Source of the DNA: an uncultured SAR324 cluster bacterium
GTDB taxonomy: Bacteria > SAR324 > NAC60-12
DNA: 40,063 bases
Direction: 5' to 3'
NCBI GenBank assembly: GCA_902590435.1
Contig: CACIWU010000008.1
Span: forward strand, 1 to 40,063
Part shown: one piece after another, positions 8,682 to 21,053 of the stretch
How positions within the stretch are numbered: position 1 is the stretch's first letter
Layout: each line of letters begins with the position of its first letter
Made by a program: the position numbers and the translations under genes
Notes under the pieces: generated by a model
Database searches by the model: none
What the model was told of the DNA's origin: nothing
The model's input: only the letters and a program-made list of their open reading frames with translations

Positions 8682-9290
8682 CTAATTTTTATTATATAAA
8701 ACGGGATTTAAACTTTCATCATTGTACATTTTCATTTGTCGATAAACTTTAAGGAATTTTTTTCCCTTGTACAAATCATCAAAAAGTTTAAATAGGCACT
8801 TACCCAAATCCTCTCGTTGCTCCCTTAAGATAGAAAGTTTTTCTAAAGTTTTTATACGGTGATTTTCATCTGCTTCTTCGCGTCTCGTTTCCTCTTCCAT
8901 GTGGTAAATTTTTAATGCATTGATAGATAGACGGTCAATTATATTTCCAGGAGTTTCGCTATTCATTTCAGCTCCTGGATTAGTTAATAAATTTTCATTA
9001 TGCATTAGATTTACTAAAAAACTATCCATTTTTTCAATCAAATCATTTCTTCTTTGATTTAAAGAATCAATGGAACGTTTTACAGAGGCAATTTTTGAAT
9101 TGGAAGCATCAGGATCACGCGCTATATCTTCCTCATGCCATAACTCAAAATTTACCCGATGTTGAATAGATACTATTCTAGAAAAATCTAAAGGCAGAGA
9201 CATATCTACATTAACAAAAGATTTATGCCAAATTTCAACTTCTTCAATCTGTTGACTCAACAACTTTTCGGTTTCAAAGGGAAAACTCAT
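8682..9290 (-). CDS. DUF4254 family protein
   Basis: The 202-aa, all-helical, highly charged protein matches DUF4254. The characteristic NFELWHEEDIARDPDAS (47-63) and VKRSIDSLNQRRNDLIEKMD (69-88) are present. The family has no established biochemical role but is commonly encoded beside lipopolysaccharide glycosyltransferases, as here: the GT9 enzyme ends 10 bp upstream. Co-transcription suggests a role in LPS core or another surface glycan. No signal peptide or membrane segment is visible, so it is probably cytoplasmic. Confidence 0.8.
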   Translation of the reverse strand: MSFPFETEKLLSQQIEEVEIWHKSFVNVDMSLPLDFSRIVSIQHRVNFELWHEEDIARDPDASNSKIASVKRSIDSLNQRRNDLIEKMDSFLVNLMHNENLLTNPGAEMNSETPGNIIDRLSINALKIYHMEEETRREEADENHRIKTLEKLSILREQREDLGKCLFKLFDDLYKGKKFLKVYRQMKMYNDESLNPVLYNKN

Positions 9291-10789: not shown

Positions 10790-10918
10790 ATGTCTCCTAA
10801 ACAAAAAACAGCGACAAAAAGACACGCAAATAAAAGGCCTAACAAAAGAAATCTGAAAAAACGTCATAAGATCATTCATGAGAATTCAATGCTTCTCCAG
10901 TCTCTTTCTACTGATTAA
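10790..10918 (+). CDS. 42-aa Lys/Arg-rich protein coupled to exonuclease III
   Basis: A short frame starts MSPKQKTATKRHANKRPNK and continues with more Lys/Arg/His before a short neutral C-terminus (LLQSLSTD). About 15 of the first 30 residues are basic, so nucleic-acid or ribosome binding is plausible. Its TAA overlaps the ATG of the next gene (TAATG), a layout that suggests translational coupling with the exonuclease. No strong Shine-Dalgarno sequence is visible. I do not recognise a family. The tight overlap and composition favour a real gene. Confidence 0.55.
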   Translation: MSPKQKTATKRHANKRPNKRNLKKRHKIIHENSMLLQSLSTD

Positions 10919-11964
10919 TGGCCAATCAGGAGATTTTACAATCACTGATTTCAGATCAGGTTAGAAAAAAACTCCAAAAAGATGGAATTTCTTTTTCAGA
11001 AATTCGACAGGCAAGTAATACCCCAGAAAAATTAGTTGAGGACATCTATTGCAATTGGCGCAGTGGTAAAATCAATGTTTTTCGAAACTGGGATGGGATG
11101 CTTGAAAATCAACAAAAAATCGTTTATAGCAATAGTGCTTGTTTATTACCAGGAGACAGACTTTACATTGATACTTCATCCTTAAAGAAAAAATGGAAGG
11201 TTGCAACTTGGAACGTAAATTCCATTAGAGCGCGTTTATCGCTACTTTTGCAATGGCTGGAATTACATAAACCGGACGCAGTTTGTATTCAGGAAACAAA
11301 AGTTGAAGACAAACTCTTCCCAGTTTGGGAACTTAAGCAAGCTGGATATGAATCGGATTATTACGGACAAAAATCATATAACGGTGTTGCAATTTTATCT
11401 AAACATCCTATTAGTGATACCCAATATGGCTTTCTTAATGGCTATGATAGGGAAAATGCTCGTCTAATTAAGGCCACGATTTCTGGTGTTAGACTTATTA
11501 ATGTTTATGTGCCTCAAGGACAAAACACAGAATCAGACAAATTTCAGTATAAGTTAAAATTTTTTGAAGAATTAAAGCAAGAAATACTTCAAGAAAAAAC
11601 TTCCTTAAGAGCTTGCGCAATCATGGGAGATTTCAATGTTGCTCCTGAGGCAAAAGATTTGTCAGATCCAGAATCTATGAAAAACAAGGTCAGCTTTCAT
11701 CCAAAAGAACATGAGTTTTTAGAAACAATTAAAGATTCTGGTTTAATTGATATCTTTCGAAAATTTGATCAAAATAGTGGGCAATTTTCCTGGTGGGATT
11801 TCCGAACAAGAGGATTCGAAAGAGGTGAAGGTATGCGGATTGACTACATACTAGGCAATTCTGTTTTGACATCCTCTTGTCAAACATGCATAATCGATAC
11901 GGAAACAAGAGCAAAAGACCGTCCATCAGATCACGCACCTGTAATAGCTGAGTTTATTTTTTGA
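10918..11964 (+). CDS. xthA: Exodeoxyribonuclease III with N-terminal extension
   Basis: Residues about 93-348 form a complete exonuclease III/AP endonuclease (EEP fold): WKVATWNVNSIRARL (93-107), QETK with the metal ligand Glu126, NVYVPQG (195-201), GDFNVAP (237-243; Asp238, Asn240) and SDHAPV with His339. The enzyme cuts at abasic sites and degrades duplex DNA from 3' ends. The family is usually about 260 aa; here 92 extra residues precede it, a mixed helical segment without a domain I recognise. The start overlaps the stop of a 42-aa basic protein. The nuclease call is firm; the extension's job is unknown. Confidence 0.9.
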   Translation: MANQEILQSLISDQVRKKLQKDGISFSEIRQASNTPEKLVEDIYCNWRSGKINVFRNWDGMLENQQKIVYSNSACLLPGDRLYIDTSSLKKKWKVATWNVNSIRARLSLLLQWLELHKPDAVCIQETKVEDKLFPVWELKQAGYESDYYGQKSYNGVAILSKHPISDTQYGFLNGYDRENARLIKATISGVRLINVYVPQGQNTESDKFQYKLKFFEELKQEILQEKTSLRACAIMGDFNVAPEAKDLSDPESMKNKVSFHPKEHEFLETIKDSGLIDIFRKFDQNSGQFSWWDFRTRGFERGEGMRIDYILGNSVLTSSCQTCIIDTETRAKDRPSDHAPVIAEFIF

Positions 11965-11989: not shown

Positions 11990-12295
11990 ATGAACAGAGC
12001 AAAACCTCTAAGAATAATCATCATAGCTTGCCTGCTTTTTGCATTATTATCATTAAATGTTTCAGCTGCAATACCTCAAGAGAGACCTGGAGCATTTGCA
12101 ATGGTAATTGATGTTCCAATTCGAGTAGTCGGATTAGGTTTAGCGCTAATTGGATCTGCTTTCTTTGTAGTAGCTTTACCCTTTGCACTAACCTCTGGAA
12201 GTACTGGAGATGCCTGGGATGTGCTGGTAGTAGAGCCTTTTGAGTTCACTTTCACCAGACCCCTAGGGAAATTTGAAGAATGGAAGAGCCCATAG
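11990..12295 (+). CDS. Small exported/membrane protein, unknown
   Basis: The 101-aa protein has a signal-peptide-like start (MNRAKPLRIIIIACLLFALL, ending near SAA at residue 27), then a hydrophobic segment (about 41-70, containing GLGLALIGSAFFVVALPFAL) and a tail reading WDVLVVEPFEFTFTRPLG. The ending PFxFTFxRPLG is, from memory, shared by a group of uncharacterised Gram-negative envelope proteins. It lies 25 bp after the exonuclease gene and 50 bp before the first beta-barrel paralogue, so it may be co-transcribed with either. Confidence 0.6.
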   Translation: MNRAKPLRIIIIACLLFALLSLNVSAAIPQERPGAFAMVIDVPIRVVGLGLALIGSAFFVVALPFALTSGSTGDAWDVLVVEPFEFTFTRPLGKFEEWKSP

Positions 12296-12345: not shown

Positions 12346-12894
12346 ATGAAGAAGATAATTTTTATTGCTATTGCAACAACAAGCTTGCTTCTTTCAAGTA
12401 CTCAGGCGTTTGCATTATTTTCTGTAAGTGTTGGAGTCCCATTAAATCAATCATTTAGTTCAGGAACCGAAATAGAATCTGTTAGTGGTTCTTTAATTGG
12501 TGTCCAATTACCTTTTGCTTTGGGTTTAGGAATGGATAGTTATAAAACAAAAGTTAAAGATTCCGTTTTAGAATTAGAAACTAGCGTGTATAACATATTC
12601 TATCAGCTTCCCGTTCCAATTGTTAATCTAATTCTTGGTGTTGGCACAGGTAATCATAAATTTGTTTGTTCCGATATTGGAGACGGAAGTTCCTGTTCCG
12701 ATTATTTTGAAAAGGGTTCTATTACTCAGTGGTATACAAGTATCGGACTGCCAATCATTCCATTCTTTGACATTCACCTAAGTTATCGCTCAATTACTTC
12801 AAAAAATGTGGAAGTTATTAAAGGGTCTAGTAAAGGATCAAAATCAGACTTAAATTCAACTGTAACAGGAGTAGGTATCGCATTCAATTTCTAA
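12346..12894 (+). CDS. Secreted beta-barrel-like protein, paralogue 1
   Basis: The 182-aa protein has a signal peptide (MKKIIFIAIATTSLLLSSTQ, ending near AFA at residue 23) and a mature part of alternating hydrophobic strands ending in GVGIAFNF, an aromatic C-terminus typical of outer-membrane barrels. It shares with the next two genes SVGVP, FYQLPVP..NL.LGVGTG, a YFEKGSITQWYTS block and FDIHLSYRSITSKN. Two cysteines flank a short insert (CSDIGDGSSC) and may form a disulfide. AGGAG lies 8-9 bp before the ATG. A hairpin terminator follows. Outer-membrane location is inferred; function unknown. Confidence 0.7.
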   Translation: MKKIIFIAIATTSLLLSSTQAFALFSVSVGVPLNQSFSSGTEIESVSGSLIGVQLPFALGLGMDSYKTKVKDSVLELETSVYNIFYQLPVPIVNLILGVGTGNHKFVCSDIGDGSSCSDYFEKGSITQWYTSIGLPIIPFFDIHLSYRSITSKNVEVIKGSSKGSKSDLNSTVTGVGIAFNF

Positions 12895-12929
12895 AAGGAA
12901 AAATTATAAAGCGTATTTTATCTACAATT

Positions 12930-12962
12930 AAGGGTGCATATAAAATTTTAAAAAGCACCCTT
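12930..12962 (+). terminator. Probable Rho-independent terminator after barrel paralogue 1
   Basis: Perfect 8-bp arms AAGGGTGC (12930-12937) and GCACCCTT (12955-12962) enclose a 17-nt A/T loop and are followed by TATATTATTTT. The long loop and imperfect T tract make it moderate in strength. It separates paralogue 1 from paralogue 2. Confidence 0.6.
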
Positions 12963-13083
12963 TATATTATTTTAAGCTTTAACAAAATTTTATATAAAGG
13001 TAACTTTTAGCTTCTTTTTGTAACAGAAGTTTGCATGTCCTTGCAATTTCAACATTATTTTGGAAGTTCCTAAATATCCGATC

Positions 13084-13728
13084 ATGAAAAAAATCCTTTT
13101 AAATATTTTTATATCTTCTATATTTATTTTTTATAGCACATCTATACTGGCAATTTCAATAAGCATTGGGAGTCCATCTAGCCATAGCTCAAGTGGTTTC
13201 GTATATGATGAAGTTGAAGGTATATATGGAAAACAATCTTATGGAAACGCTATAGATAAACCTAGTGGTTATTTTCTAGGCGTACTATCTACCTATGATA
13301 TAGGATTTGGTATAGATCGTTATACAACAAAATTTAAGACTGGAACTTGTACAGGGTGCTGGGCATCACGTTACAATGCAGGCTTGAAAACTAAAATGAC
13401 TAATATTTTCTATCAACTCCCTATACGTGCTTTAAATATAATAGTTGGCATAGGAACGGGTACTACAGAATATGATTGTACAGTTTGTTCTACTTATTAT
13501 GAAAAGGGTTCTGCAACTCAGTGGTATACAAGCTTTGGAATGTCAATAATATCATCCTTAGAAATACACCTTAGCTATCGCTCTGTTACTGCAAAAAATA
13601 TAACAAACAAGTATACTGATATGAAGGATGATAATAGTGGCACTGTAACAGGTATTGGATTATCATTCAATTTCTCTGGGGGTGATGAAGAGGAATATGA
13701 CGATGACGATGATTATGATGAAGAATAA
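13084..13728 (+). CDS. Secreted beta-barrel-like protein, paralogue 2 (Cys-rich, acidic tail)
   Basis: The ATG at 13084 begins a normal signal peptide (MKKILLNIFISSIFIFYS), so I prefer it to the in-frame TTG at 13060. The 214-aa product has the family blocks FYQLPIRALNIIVGIGTG, YYEKGSATQWYTSFG, EIHLSYRSVTAKN and GIGLSFNF. It differs from its neighbours in having two CxxC-type pairs (CTGC and CTVC) inside loop-like regions and a tail of about 16 residues that is almost all Asp/Glu (after SGG), which follows the usual barrel end. The Cys pairs could bind metal or form disulfides; the tail could bind calcium. No Shine-Dalgarno sequence is visible. Confidence 0.65.
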   Translation: MKKILLNIFISSIFIFYSTSILAISISIGSPSSHSSSGFVYDEVEGIYGKQSYGNAIDKPSGYFLGVLSTYDIGFGIDRYTTKFKTGTCTGCWASRYNAGLKTKMTNIFYQLPIRALNIIVGIGTGTTEYDCTVCSTYYEKGSATQWYTSFGMSIISSLEIHLSYRSVTAKNITNKYTDMKDDNSGTVTGIGLSFNFSGGDEEEYDDDDDYDEE

Positions 13729-14185
13729 ATAAGAAACTCTTCAAATCTACTTTCTAACCAATATAATAAGCAGTTTTTTTAAATTAAAAAAGCTAAACCT
13801 CTAGAAAAAAAATTTTCCTCTTTCAATATAAATCTCTGATTTCCTTCACTTAAAAACAAAGCTTGATTCTAGTTCTTGTGCTGAAGATAATACTGATAGA
13901 TAGTGTTACATTGATTATACATGGATGAGAAGTAATTTGCTTTCTTATGCATATCTTTTTCTCTCTTAATTATGAATTAATAAAATTTTTTGGGTTTAAC
14001 AGCATTAAATACTTCAGCAATTTTGTTAAACATATATTAAGTATAGTTAAAAACTTTTACCATACTAGTACTTTTGATGTACTTTAAAAGTAGAATAAAA
14101 ACGCTCCATTGAGTCATGACTTTTAAATATTGAGCATATAGGTTACAATGCAAAATATTTATTCAACTAAAATCTGGAAACAAAA
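13729..14185. other. Intergenic stretch between barrel paralogues 2 and 3
   Basis: This 457-bp A/T-rich region holds no supportable gene. A minus-strand frame from 14118 to about 13979 (MTQWSVFILLLKYIK...) contains a stop and ends quickly; it may be a relic but matches nothing I recognise. An AGC...T-run / A-run...GCT imperfect hairpin near 13770-13794 could be a weak terminator of paralogue 2. The promoter of paralogue 3 must lie near the right end. Confidence 0.4.
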
Positions 14186-14713
14186 ATGAAAAAAAATTAT
14201 CTTATTCTGCTAGTAGTAGGCAACTTATATCTATTTAGTGCGACCCAAGTGTTTGCAGAACTTTTTTCTGCAAGTATTGGAGTACCAATTTCTCACACTA
14301 TTTCAGATGATACCGTCGCTGAATCAGATGGTGTCAGTGGAACATTTTTGCATGCAAAATTACCTCTAATCCCTTTAGGCTTAGGTATTGAAAGTTATAA
14401 AACTAATGTAAAAAACAATGCTCCATTGAAGATTGCTACAACAATGTTTGATTTATTTTACCTACTTCCCATTCCAATCATTAATTTAACTCTTGGTATT
14501 GGTATTGGAAATGTAGAAGTTGAAGGAGGTTCTGGATTCGAAAGAGGGAGTGCTTCACAATGGTATACTAGTGTTGGAATGCCCATATTACCTTTGTTCG
14601 ACATACACCTAAGTTATCGTTCAATTACAGCAAAAAATTCAAAAGATCAAAATGGTGATAAAATGAATTTAAGCGGAAACGTGACTGGAATTGGTATAGC
14701 TTTCACATTTTAA
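14186..14713 (+). CDS. Secreted beta-barrel-like protein, paralogue 3
   Basis: The 175-aa protein has a signal peptide (MKKNYLILLVVGNLYLFSAT, ending near VFA at residue 24) and the same block order as paralogues 1 and 2: SASIGVPIS, FYLLPIPIINLTLGIGIG, FERGSASQWYTSVGMPI, FDIHLSYRSITAKN and GIGIAFTF. It lacks the cysteines of its siblings. It is close to paralogue 1 in length and sequence, consistent with recent tandem duplication. A hydrophobic-alternating pattern and C-terminal Phe suggest an outer-membrane barrel of about eight strands. Function unknown. Confidence 0.7.
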   Translation: MKKNYLILLVVGNLYLFSATQVFAELFSASIGVPISHTISDDTVAESDGVSGTFLHAKLPLIPLGLGIESYKTNVKNNAPLKIATTMFDLFYLLPIPIINLTLGIGIGNVEVEGGSGFERGSASQWYTSVGMPILPLFDIHLSYRSITAKNSKDQNGDKMNLSGNVTGIGIAFTF

Positions 14714-14726
14714 AAATATATTTGCC

Positions 14727-15386
14727 TTGAATAACAAAATATCAAGAATTTTTCAAACAATTTGGTTTTTTTCGTATGCTGTTGTAGGATCTATAATCCT
14801 GCCAAGTAATGCAGATGCTCAATTTATGGGATTTAAAGTTGATGCCGCTATAGCTTATTCTGCTGCTCCTGGAAGTGTTTCCGGAGGCGCAATTGGAATT
14901 ATTCATCCTGTTCCATTTTTCCCAAATATTGGTTATTCAAGTATAAAATTTGAGGACAAACAAGAAGTTACTGATGCAAGTGAAAGTACTTCTTCTGTCA
15001 TTCTTACAACAGACACTACAATTAATACTTTTAATTTTTTTTATTACGTTCCCTTTCCAGTTGTAACAATATCCGTTGGAATTGGGTTAGGTCAAGACAA
15101 TCTTAATACGGGAATGGAAACCAAAACAAAAATAGAAGAAACATTTGAAAACAGTGAACAAACACCTGACAACAGTATTATAAAAACTTCTGTTTCTGAA
15201 ACTTTTATCCATATTGGACTCCCTTTCTGGAATACTATAGAATTCCATCTAGGTTACCATCTCATGTCTGTAAGTAAGATTGATTTAACTAGCAAAAAAA
15301 GTACTTCTTTGCAAGGAAATTACAATATTAGTAAGAAAAACTACACCGGAGGAATGACCACTGTTGGATTTCAAGTTGCTTTTTAA
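14727..15386 (+). CDS. Secreted beta-barrel-like protein, divergent paralogue 4
   Basis: A TTG start gives a 219-aa protein whose first 33 residues form a good signal peptide (ending near ADA). No internal ATG would keep it, so the TTG is preferred despite a poor ribosome site. The family layout is recognisable but worn: FNFFYYVPFPVVTISVGIGLG, HIGLPFWNTIEFHLGYHL and a final TVGFQVAF. It lacks the QWYTS block. It follows paralogue 3 by 13 bp and overlaps the next gene by one base (TAATG), so the two are probably translated from one mRNA. Confidence 0.6.
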   Translation: MNNKISRIFQTIWFFSYAVVGSIILPSNADAQFMGFKVDAAIAYSAAPGSVSGGAIGIIHPVPFFPNIGYSSIKFEDKQEVTDASESTSSVILTTDTTINTFNFFYYVPFPVVTISVGIGLGQDNLNTGMETKTKIEETFENSEQTPDNSIIKTSVSETFIHIGLPFWNTIEFHLGYHLMSVSKIDLTSKKSTSLQGNYNISKKNYTGGMTTVGFQVAF

Positions 15387-16063
15387 TGTTTTCTTCACCT
15401 TTTCCGAATTTCATTAGTTTTATTTGTAAAGATCTTTCTTTTACAAAAAACTATAATTTACTTCCTGAAGAAGAAAAGATAGTAGCATCATTTGATTCTC
15501 CAAAAAGGAAGGCAGAATTTATAATGGGTAGGGCTGTTTCCCATTTAGCACTAAAAAAATTTAAACTTGAATCTATACCTATTCTAAGAAACATTAACAC
15601 TCGTGAACCATGTTGGCCTAAATCTGTTTTCGGAAGTATTACTCATTCTGGGAATTTAGCAGCAGCAGCAGTGGGTTTAAATAGTAAAATTGCAGGTATT
15701 GGTATAGATTTAGAAAAATTATCTAGAAAAATAAATTTTGAAATAAGTCGTCATATTTGTGTAGATAATGAACTAAAATGGCTAAAAACACTTGACCCAG
15801 AACAAGCTAAATTAAATCTTAGAATTATTTTCTCTGCCAAAGAATCTATTTTTAAATGTTTTTTTCCAATATCAAGGAAACACCTTAATTTTAAAGATGC
15901 GTATATAAACATCAATGAAAAAAAGTCAGAATTTACTTATATACTTTCAACTGCTTGTTCCAATATTACTGATGTTGGATTTAGTCACAAAGGTCATTTC
16001 TCGGTAAAAGATGACTTCCTCTTGACATCAACTTACATAAAAAAATATCCGTTTACTGAATAA
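15386..16063 (+). CDS. 4'-Phosphopantetheinyl transferase (EntD type)
   Basis: The 225-aa protein has the phosphopantetheinyl transferase signatures: GSITHSG..AAAA (83-96), GIGIDLE (104-110) with the magnesium-binding Asp/Glu, and FSAKESIFK (149-157). It transfers the phosphopantetheine arm of CoA to a Ser on a carrier protein. The layout is that of the EntD branch, which serves siderophore, polyketide or polyunsaturated-fatty-acid carriers, though in some bacteria it also serves the fatty-acid ACP. No carrier-protein gene is nearby. The ATG shares one base with the preceding barrel gene stop. Confidence 0.85.
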   Translation: MFSSPFPNFISFICKDLSFTKNYNLLPEEEKIVASFDSPKRKAEFIMGRAVSHLALKKFKLESIPILRNINTREPCWPKSVFGSITHSGNLAAAAVGLNSKIAGIGIDLEKLSRKINFEISRHICVDNELKWLKTLDPEQAKLNLRIIFSAKESIFKCFFPISRKHLNFKDAYININEKKSEFTYILSTACSNITDVGFSHKGHFSVKDDFLLTSTYIKKYPFTE

Positions 16064-16346: not shown

Positions 16347-17468
16347 ATGGAAATAATTTTAAATAGAGAATTATTATCAGATGCTCTTCAAAATATTAAT
16401 TCTGTTGTTGATAAAAGTTCAACTAAGCCTATTCTTTCAAATTTTGTTATGAGGACATTGGAAGGAGAAAAAAGTAAAGTTGAGTTTTCTTCGACAGACT
16501 ATGAATTATCTTTAGTAGAGAAAATAGATGCAGAAGTCAAAGAAACAGGTAGTATTTGTGTTAATGCTAAAAAAGTTTTCGATATAGTTAAAGAACTGAG
16601 AGATGATAAAGTTTATATTAGATCAACGGAACAACTTTGGATTCATATTACATGTGGCTCTTCTGAATTGAGACTTCCTTCCGTAGAAGTAGGTTTATAT
16701 CCACAAACGGTTTTAGAAGAACTTCCAGAATCTTTAAAAATTTCAGTTGAGGATTTTAAAAGTTGTATTGACATGACTTTGTTTGCGGCTATGACAAATG
16801 AATCGAGAAGGAATTTAATGGGAGTATGTCTAAGTTTAACAAGTGACCAAAAGACTCGTTGGATTTCAACAGATGGACATCGTTTAGCTCAAGTAGTTAT
16901 GCCCGTTAAAGAACAGGTTTTTAGTGAGGGCAAGGAAGTAATAATACCTAGAAAAGCATTGACGGAAGTAAGAAGAACGGCTGATATTTTTGGAAAGATA
17001 GTAAATATTTCTTTTGATTCACGTGTTATGCAGTTTTCAGGAGGAGATATAACATATAAAACTAGATTGATTGAAGGTAAATTTCCAAATTGTGATCCAA
17101 TTATTCCAAAAGACAATAATCTAGAAATTTCAGTAAATAGAGAAAGTTTTGTAAATTCTTTGAGAATTGTTTCATCAATTAGTATGGAAAAACTTAGACC
17201 GGTGAAAATAATTTTTTCTCATGGATTATTAAGATTAGAAAGCGAAAAAGCTGACTATGGTGAAGTAGTAGATGAAATAGAAGCTGGTTATGAAGGAGAA
17301 AATTTTCAAATAGGTTTTAATTCAAGATATTTGTTAGATGTCTTAGGAGTGATTGAAAGTGATGAGATACTACTTAACTGTAAAAACTCTATGAGTCCAA
17401 CAATCATAAAATCTCCGAGAGATGAGTCATTTATATCTGTAATTATGCCACTAAGAGTCGAATGGTAG
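16347..17468 (+). CDS. dnaN: DNA polymerase III beta subunit (sliding clamp)
   Basis: The 373-aa protein is a full-length beta clamp with three repeated clamp domains. Recognisable segments include NREL...AL..INSVVDKSSTKPIL at the start, WISTDGHRLAQV near residue 172 and a C-terminal SFISVIMPLRVEW, close to the invariant PMRL-type ending. It forms the ring that tethers DNA polymerase III to DNA. It begins the dnaN-recF-gyrB-der series immediately after the candidate origin. The leader is A-rich without a Shine-Dalgarno sequence. No dnaA precedes it. Confidence 0.97.
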   Translation: MEIILNRELLSDALQNINSVVDKSSTKPILSNFVMRTLEGEKSKVEFSSTDYELSLVEKIDAEVKETGSICVNAKKVFDIVKELRDDKVYIRSTEQLWIHITCGSSELRLPSVEVGLYPQTVLEELPESLKISVEDFKSCIDMTLFAAMTNESRRNLMGVCLSLTSDQKTRWISTDGHRLAQVVMPVKEQVFSEGKEVIIPRKALTEVRRTADIFGKIVNISFDSRVMQFSGGDITYKTRLIEGKFPNCDPIIPKDNNLEISVNRESFVNSLRIVSSISMEKLRPVKIIFSHGLLRLESEKADYGEVVDEIEAGYEGENFQIGFNSRYLLDVLGVIESDEILLNCKNSMSPTIIKSPRDESFISVIMPLRVEW

Positions 17469-17536
17469 TTTGACGGTTTTTTCTCAATATAAATGAGATT
17501 TTACTGCCAAAATTACACCGTTCTAGATACGACTTC

Positions 17537-18604
17537 ATGAAAATTATAAATATTGAGCTCATTCAATTTAGAAACTATTTAAAATTTAATACAGAACTCT
17601 CACCAAAATTAAATTGGATATATGGTTCCAATGGACAAGGAAAAACAAACTTAGTTGAATCAATCCACTACCTATGTAACTTGGAATCCTTCCGAACAAG
17701 CAAAACATCTAATTTAATACAGAAAAATAAGTCAGAAACTGTAATTAATGGTCTTATTGAACGTAGTGATTTTAAGCATTCTGTTCGTATAAATGTATCT
17801 AAAAAAGGTAGACAAGTATTATTAGACAATAACCCAGCTTATCATGTTTCTGAATATATTTTTTCCTTTATGTCACTTGCATTTACTCCAGAAAGTGTAG
17901 GTCTATTCAAAAGTACTCCTCAGGAACGTCGTAAATTTTTTAATAAAATTATTTCTTTTCTTAATCCAATTTATTTTAAAGATCTTCAGGAATGTAAAAA
18001 AATAATTATTCAGAAAAATGCTTCTTTACGAAGTGGTAGTATTGAACAAATATCTATTTGGAATAAAATGCTTGCTCGTTATTCTATAAAATTGATGGAA
18101 CAACGAGTAAACTTTGTTGAACAAGTAAATCTTTTTTTACACGATCTTTTCACAGAGCTATCGGGACGATCAGAAAATTTACGTTTGATCTATGAACCAT
18201 CTCTTAATTCAAAAATTTTTGATGAAAAATTTTTTTTTGAACAACTTGAAAAAAATCAGAAAAAAGAATTGCAACAAGGGTATTCTATTCTCGGACCGCA
18301 TAGAGATGAATTTCACTTAATGATGAATGAACAAAAAGATAGAGATTTTTTTTCACAAGGAGAGTTTAGAATAACTAATTTGTCTTTAAAAATGACTATT
18401 AATCATTTATTATATAAAAAGTACAAATTTCACCCCGTTTTGATTTTTGACGACCTTCTTTCAGAGTTGGATGAGGAGGTAGTTAATCACGTTATTAAGG
18501 TATTGATAAAAGTAAATAATCAAATATTTATAACATCTACCTCTAAACCATCATATTCTTTACCTGGAAAATGTATTAAAATTGAACAAGGGATGCATGT
18601 TTGA
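17537..18604 (+). CDS. recF: DNA replication and repair protein RecF
   Basis: The 355-aa SMC-like ATPase has Walker A GSNGQGKT (30-37), a signature-like segment FFSQGEFRITNLSLKM and Walker B/D-loop LIFDDLLSELDEE near residue 300. RecF helps load RecA onto gapped single-stranded DNA with RecO and RecR. The start is ATG 68 bp after dnaN. A small hairpin (CTCA...TGAG) lies in that gap. Its place between dnaN and gyrB is the classical one. recA itself is 17 kb downstream in this window. Confidence 0.96.
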   Translation: MKIINIELIQFRNYLKFNTELSPKLNWIYGSNGQGKTNLVESIHYLCNLESFRTSKTSNLIQKNKSETVINGLIERSDFKHSVRINVSKKGRQVLLDNNPAYHVSEYIFSFMSLAFTPESVGLFKSTPQERRKFFNKIISFLNPIYFKDLQECKKIIIQKNASLRSGSIEQISIWNKMLARYSIKLMEQRVNFVEQVNLFLHDLFTELSGRSENLRLIYEPSLNSKIFDEKFFFEQLEKNQKKELQQGYSILGPHRDEFHLMMNEQKDRDFFSQGEFRITNLSLKMTINHLLYKKYKFHPVLIFDDLLSELDEEVVNHVIKVLIKVNNQIFITSTSKPSYSLPGKCIKIEQGMHV

Positions 18605-18644
18605 ATTAATAAACTTCTAACTTATTTTTGGATACAGCTAATAA

Positions 18645-21053
<2,409 letters not shown>

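Follow-up and report, generated by a model that had tools for sequence, protein, structure and literature searches.

The window analysed here, a stretch of 40,063 nucleotides, makes up a single contig in the 1.5-Mb genome (54% complete) of a SAR324 cluster bacterium. Four open reading frames encoding predicted barrel proteins lie on its + strand between sec101, a gene for a small hydrophobic protein, and PPT, a 4′-phosphopantetheinyl transferase gene, beyond which follow dnaN, recF, and gyrB. Except for xthA and PPT, the flank genes were named from reading of their translations. The first three barrel genes are referred to as A1, A2, and A3, the fourth as B, and genomes of relatives by G numbers.

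Organization of the barrel locus

The left border of the exchanged block described below is an xthA-like exonuclease III gene (10918–11964, + strand; TIGR00195, E 1e-82), which encodes about 90 additional N-terminal residues having no Pfam or NCBIfam match over cut-off. Gene sec101 (11990–12295, +) keeps its place beside xthA in the genus and is the first gene of the exchanged cassette, with which it travels. Its product has two hydrophobic segments and reaches no Pfam or NCBIfam family over cut-off, giving only a weak match to DUF6163 (E 0.061). A1 (12346–12894, +) is followed by a candidate terminator, composed of a hairpin with an 8-bp stem and a T-rich stretch (12930–12962, +; −11.7 kcal/mol for 12925–12980), at which A1 may end a transcript. 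A2 (13084–13728, +) more likely starts at the ATG at 13084 than at the alternative TTG at 13060. Its acidic tail (13675–13728), rich in D and E, lies behind the usual C-terminal F, and the G005 and G006 copies have no such tail. A possible remnant of a decayed A gene is located at 13853–13897 (+), where a loop-3 motif has 11 of 15 residues identical to a G005 copy. It scores 25.0 bits, a value equalled by none of 300 dinucleotide shuffles (highest, 23.5), and this weak trace would suit gain and loss of A copies. A3 (14186–14713, +) and B (14727–15386, +) complete the series, and PPT (15386–16063, +; 4PPT_N, E 4e-17; ACPS, E 7.3e-14) forms the right border of the block. In SAR324 family f3 (L057–L059, L061–L066), one lone family member is situated close to a homologue of the gene at 8682–9290 of the window, which hints at an older linkage.

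A preliminary description of this DNA had placed the genes beside a candidate replication origin that could raise their dosage. We found little support for this proposal. The GC skew changes sign near 10–11 kb, along with gene direction, and the DnaA-box consensus does not occur between 7.1 and 18.3 kb of the window. The gene dnaA lies on a different contig, both here and in G005, G008, and G016. Positions 16347–21053 hold dnaN, recF, and gyrB together without dnaA.

The four genes are homologous, as had been proposed: a search of their own genome with A1 retrieved A2, A3, and B at 53%, 45%, and 26% identity (E 2.5e-44, 7.4e-31, and 2.5e-4, respectively), and the proposed block order FYxLPxP, GSxxQWYTS, HLSYRSxTxKN, and GxGxxFxF was found in A1–A3. 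The fourth gene had been regarded as a worn relative, and this is where the description has to be revised. B is open, and its product begins with a hydrophobic segment and ends in F. The B orthologues group in a single clade (support 100/100, 21 rows) and lie directly before PPT in 17 of 21 B loci, the contig ending there in two of the other four. This single clade and conserved position rule out a decaying copy. Tandem duplication, also part of that description, is real but not recent in the window genome: A2 clusters with copies from G005 and G006 (99/91) and A3 with a copy from G001 (100/99), that is, with copies of other species, which rules out a recent event. G020 and G021 have no A gene between sec101 and B, and in G018 and G022 no A gene was detected next to B. 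The constant gene of the locus is therefore B, whereas A, with three copies here, varies in number.

Several apparent cases of A decay were rejected. The loss of A in G003, first taken as a remnant, is actually a 100-N gap inside the A gene. The A gene of G014, a genome of 7.3 Mb, is in two pieces, with ambiguous bases at the site. The A copy of G005 contains stops, but the same contig has frame breaks in xthA, PPT, and gyrB, and read errors are as likely as decay. At this locus (L047), the three broken genes each match in two pieces, probably owing to read errors, and stops in G005 as a whole are unsafe as evidence of decay.

Family distribution, predicted fold, and loop variation

None of the four window proteins reaches a curated Pfam or NCBIfam cut-off. 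B matches TIGR04219 (OMP_w_GlyGly, an outer-membrane barrel family) at 19.4 bits (E 5e-4), short of the cut-off of 105 bits. At E up to 1, A1–A3 match neither TIGR04219 nor PF13505 (OMP_b-brl), the latter having no match among all four proteins, and a PDB sequence search likewise gave no match. Weak matches to TIGR04219 occur in six of 17 family members (best E 1.1e-5) and to PF13505 in two of 17 (best 5.4e-6); they stay few also when 20 members are taken. A search with a 17-member profile (E 1e-10), such as the preliminary description had called for, found the family in 43 of 52 SAR324 genomes. With a profile of the four window proteins (E 1e-3), the family was found in 43 of 98 genomes, all 43 in the class of the window, and in none of 46 genomes outside SAR324; none of 201 genomes of one other phylum held it. 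Its absence from G002, G007, G009, and G013 is unsupported, since the contigs of G009 and G013 stop within flanking genes and neither flank was located in G002 or G007. No relative was found among viral contigs, and A3 had no tblastn match in phage records. The literature search listed no paper on the barrel family or on exchange in SAR324.

The proteins had been described as secreted and barrel-like, to be checked by structure prediction. We modelled A1 and B with AF2, using 17 sequences per alignment. The A1 model has eight strands (pLDDT 84, pTM 0.73), and the B model, weaker than that of A1, is a barrel with longer loops and ten strand segments (pLDDT 78, pTM 0.68). The best among the fold matches listed for A1 are NspA (Z 16.1, rmsd 2.8, 148 residues aligned), a Legionella porin (15.2), OmpW (15.1), and OmpX (14.8); for B, the best among those listed are OmpA, NspA, and OmpW, with Z of about 13.3. 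A hydrophobic N-terminal segment is seen by eye in all four proteins. A1, A3, and B end in a C-terminal F, and in A2 the acidic tail follows it. The computed barrel fold and C-terminal aromatic end thus point to four small, OmpX/NspA/OmpW-like predicted outer-membrane β-barrels, with more strength for A1 than for B.

Variation among family members is concentrated in the loops, as had been anticipated. Relative to A1, 33 sequences have 102 insertion events in loops L1–L4, 16 in periplasmic turns, and 10 in strands, adding up to 537, 32, and 40 residues, respectively. The placement of insertions mainly in the predicted outward loops agrees with the A1 model. Cysteines vary as reported: A1 has one pair (C108 and C117, at loop 3), A2 has CTGC and CTVC (at loops 2 and 3) in addition to the acidic tail, and mature A3 has none. 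The family comprises 64 rows, 43 A-type and 21 B. Among the A rows, two mature cysteines occur in 25, four in A2 of the window alone, none in 16, and three in one broken fragment, so that the number is even in 42 of 43; it is zero in all 21 B rows, including B of the window. Cysteine spacing varies between CxC and about Cx9C, and the pairs lie mostly in loop 3, sometimes in loop 2. Judging from these sequences, even counts with variable spacing would be more in keeping with a disulphide in the loop than with metal binding.

Diversifying selection had been proposed, with a comparison of loop and strand rates as its check. In ten pairs with low synonymous divergence, the pooled dN/dS (bootstrap interval) was 0.68 (0.51–0.91) in loops and 0.32 (0.25–0.40) in strands, while the median of flank genes was 0.15 (64 gene pairs, pS below 0.5). 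The loops, having the higher ratio, are not uniformly purified; this part of the proposal holds, but the pooled loops stay below 1. A dN/dS above 1 was reached in neither pooled loops nor pooled strands of the ten pairs, and recombination would mislead codon models. Loops exceed strands below p 0.05 in four of the ten pairs. The excess is clear (p 0.001 or less) in the three B comparisons among G001, G005, and G011, and narrow in three other pairs (p 0.038–0.052); four pairs have no difference (p 0.12–0.48). Loop pN exceeds loop pS in three of the ten, in one of them by 0.01. Two of the three B pairs also have higher pS in loops, suggesting mosaic recombination inside the gene.

The fold matches include AlkL and PagL besides OmpW, and the proteins could accordingly be channels for solutes or barrels that handle lipids, similar to OmpW or PagL, adjusted to local conditions and exchanged for niche adaptation and not for escape. 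We consider this function possible but unlikely, because the variation lies in loop length and loop sequence more than in the strands.

Divergence and history of the cassette and its flanks

Each species is represented by one genome, in most cases assembled from a metagenome. Divergence at synonymous (pS) and replacement (pN) sites was measured gene by gene for 66 pairs drawn from 12 genomes in the genus. The window genome is near saturation at synonymous sites against the other 11, and the evidence for exchange comes from its relatives only. G003 and G014 have flank pS of 0.14–0.25, yet 0.51 in sec101 and 0.44 in B. Their identity is 87–97% over about 20.5 kb but 75–81% over the cassette. At the left border they are 95% identical up to the end of xthA and diverge beyond it; at the right border, identity returns from the last codons of B onward, into PPT. 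Both edges are in ungapped sequence, outside the G003 gap. The pair G010/G014 has no identity dip across the cassette. B of G003 groups with that of G006, and B of G014 with that of G010; the recipient may be either G003 or G014.

The reverse pattern is also found. G001/G011 and G005/G011 have flank median pS of 0.58 and 0.55, yet their B genes differ by 0.16 and 0.13, respectively. B is thus shared across distant flanks but falls short of near-identity, and the sharing is not very recent. G005 and G006 differ at pS 0.57 in the flanks and 0.60 in B, yet at 0.11 in sec101 and 0.17 in each of two A genes. The flanks of G005 resemble those of G001, its sec101-A part that of G006, and its B that of G011. 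Departures of at least 0.15 from the flank median pS occur in B in eight of 18 informative pairs, in sec101 in 15 of 23, and in nine flank genes together in six of 67 (fliN three, xthA two, topoIV_A one), counts that are not independent as the pairs share genomes. Counted by eye, at least three exchanges seem needed.

Gene trees agree with these distances, and sec101 departs from the flanks in both. For 11 taxa, B is incompatible with the PPT+dnaN+recF tree (AU p 2.8e-17) and sec101 with the left-flank tree (p 4.4e-6). A nine-taxon control compared each gene with the tree of the flank genes, leaving out the gene under test. The seven flank genes all proved compatible (AU p 0.058–0.504, at most 0.012 log-likelihood units per site), and the incompatible genes were sec101 (p 2e-4, with 0.13 units per site) and B (p 0.0024, with 0.43). 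Hence, all or part of the sec101-A-B block has been swapped between lineages of the genus, while xthA and PPT-dnaN-recF keep one history, a pattern resembling replacement flexible genomic islands. This exchange between lineages is a stronger signal than the loop dN/dS.

Frequent exchange might arise merely from the conserved housekeeping genes on both sides, as a neutral recombination hotspot without selection for change. The flanks are indeed conserved genes, and pooled dN/dS is below 1 in loops as well as strands. However, the congruence of PPT, dnaN, recF, and xthA suggests that exchange ends at the borders of the cassette, and the loops change faster than the strands; we regard a purely neutral origin as rather unlikely. 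It is improbable, further, that assembly or binning chimeras joined the cassettes of co-sampled strains to wrong flanks. Contigs end at the locus in seven of 15 flank-holding genomes, where 3.1–4.7 are expected (P 0.02–0.14), an excess that would fit chimeras and is too weak as a sign of population variation, and the gap in the A gene of G003 would fit them as well. Against this, the conflicts occur in several genomes, the G003 transitions fall outside its gap, and G005, an assembly of five contigs with the locus on an 863-kb contig and no N in the 37 kb examined, still combines parts that resemble three other genomes.

Proposed mechanism and comparison with known systems

Taken as a whole, the locus is probably best explained as a surface-barrel cassette, with a constant B and a variable A, that is replaced between lineages while the conserved flanks are kept. 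Homologous recombination within the conserved flanks would move the block, as the sharp borders and unchanged flanks suggest. The barrel proteins would be displayed on the cell surface, where paired cysteines may form disulphides that staple the loops. Swaps would be kept since they alter what phages, grazers, or other surface binders recognize; phage or grazer pressure as the selective agent is a guess. That A and B instead make up a polymorphic two-part surface complex, a recognition tag for phage exclusion or kin recognition traded as a cassette with B constant and the disulphide-stapled A loops as its variable face, is very improbable, given that the sec101-A and B parts of G005 resemble different lineages, which speaks against strict A-B co-adaptation.

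Most knowledge of the marine lineage SAR324 comes from metagenomes, and little has been described of its cell surface. The locus is a small, sharp-bordered site at which that surface seems to change fast. Selection on surface change becomes testable here with existing reads, by counting cassette versions per population and their tracking by viruses.

OmpX, NspA, the OmpA transmembrane domain, and OmpW resemble the present proteins in the predicted eight-stranded barrel with a C-terminal F. They differ in sequence, with an identity of about 8–17% in structural alignment, and the present locus has tandem A copies together with B, and paired loop cysteines. The neisserial surface proteins PorA, PorB, and Opa likewise combine a constant barrel scaffold with variable loops, their alleles being shuffled by recombination. 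Here, by comparison, the family is a different one, in an uncultured marine lineage and at a fixed locus beside dnaN.

A similar pattern is that of replacement flexible genomic islands of aquatic prokaryotes, in which clusters for the O-chain, S-layer, and flagellum are exchanged within species, and the authors link the exchange to phage recognition, phages being the usual proposal (PMC4033161). The likeness consists of one site, exposed structures, exchange between clonal frames, and conserved borders (PMC4033161), and the relatives of the window genome hold different versions at one site between conserved flanks. Compared with those islands, the cassette is only about 1.3–3.4 kb of small barrel genes, and it is exchanged between species-level genomes of one genus.
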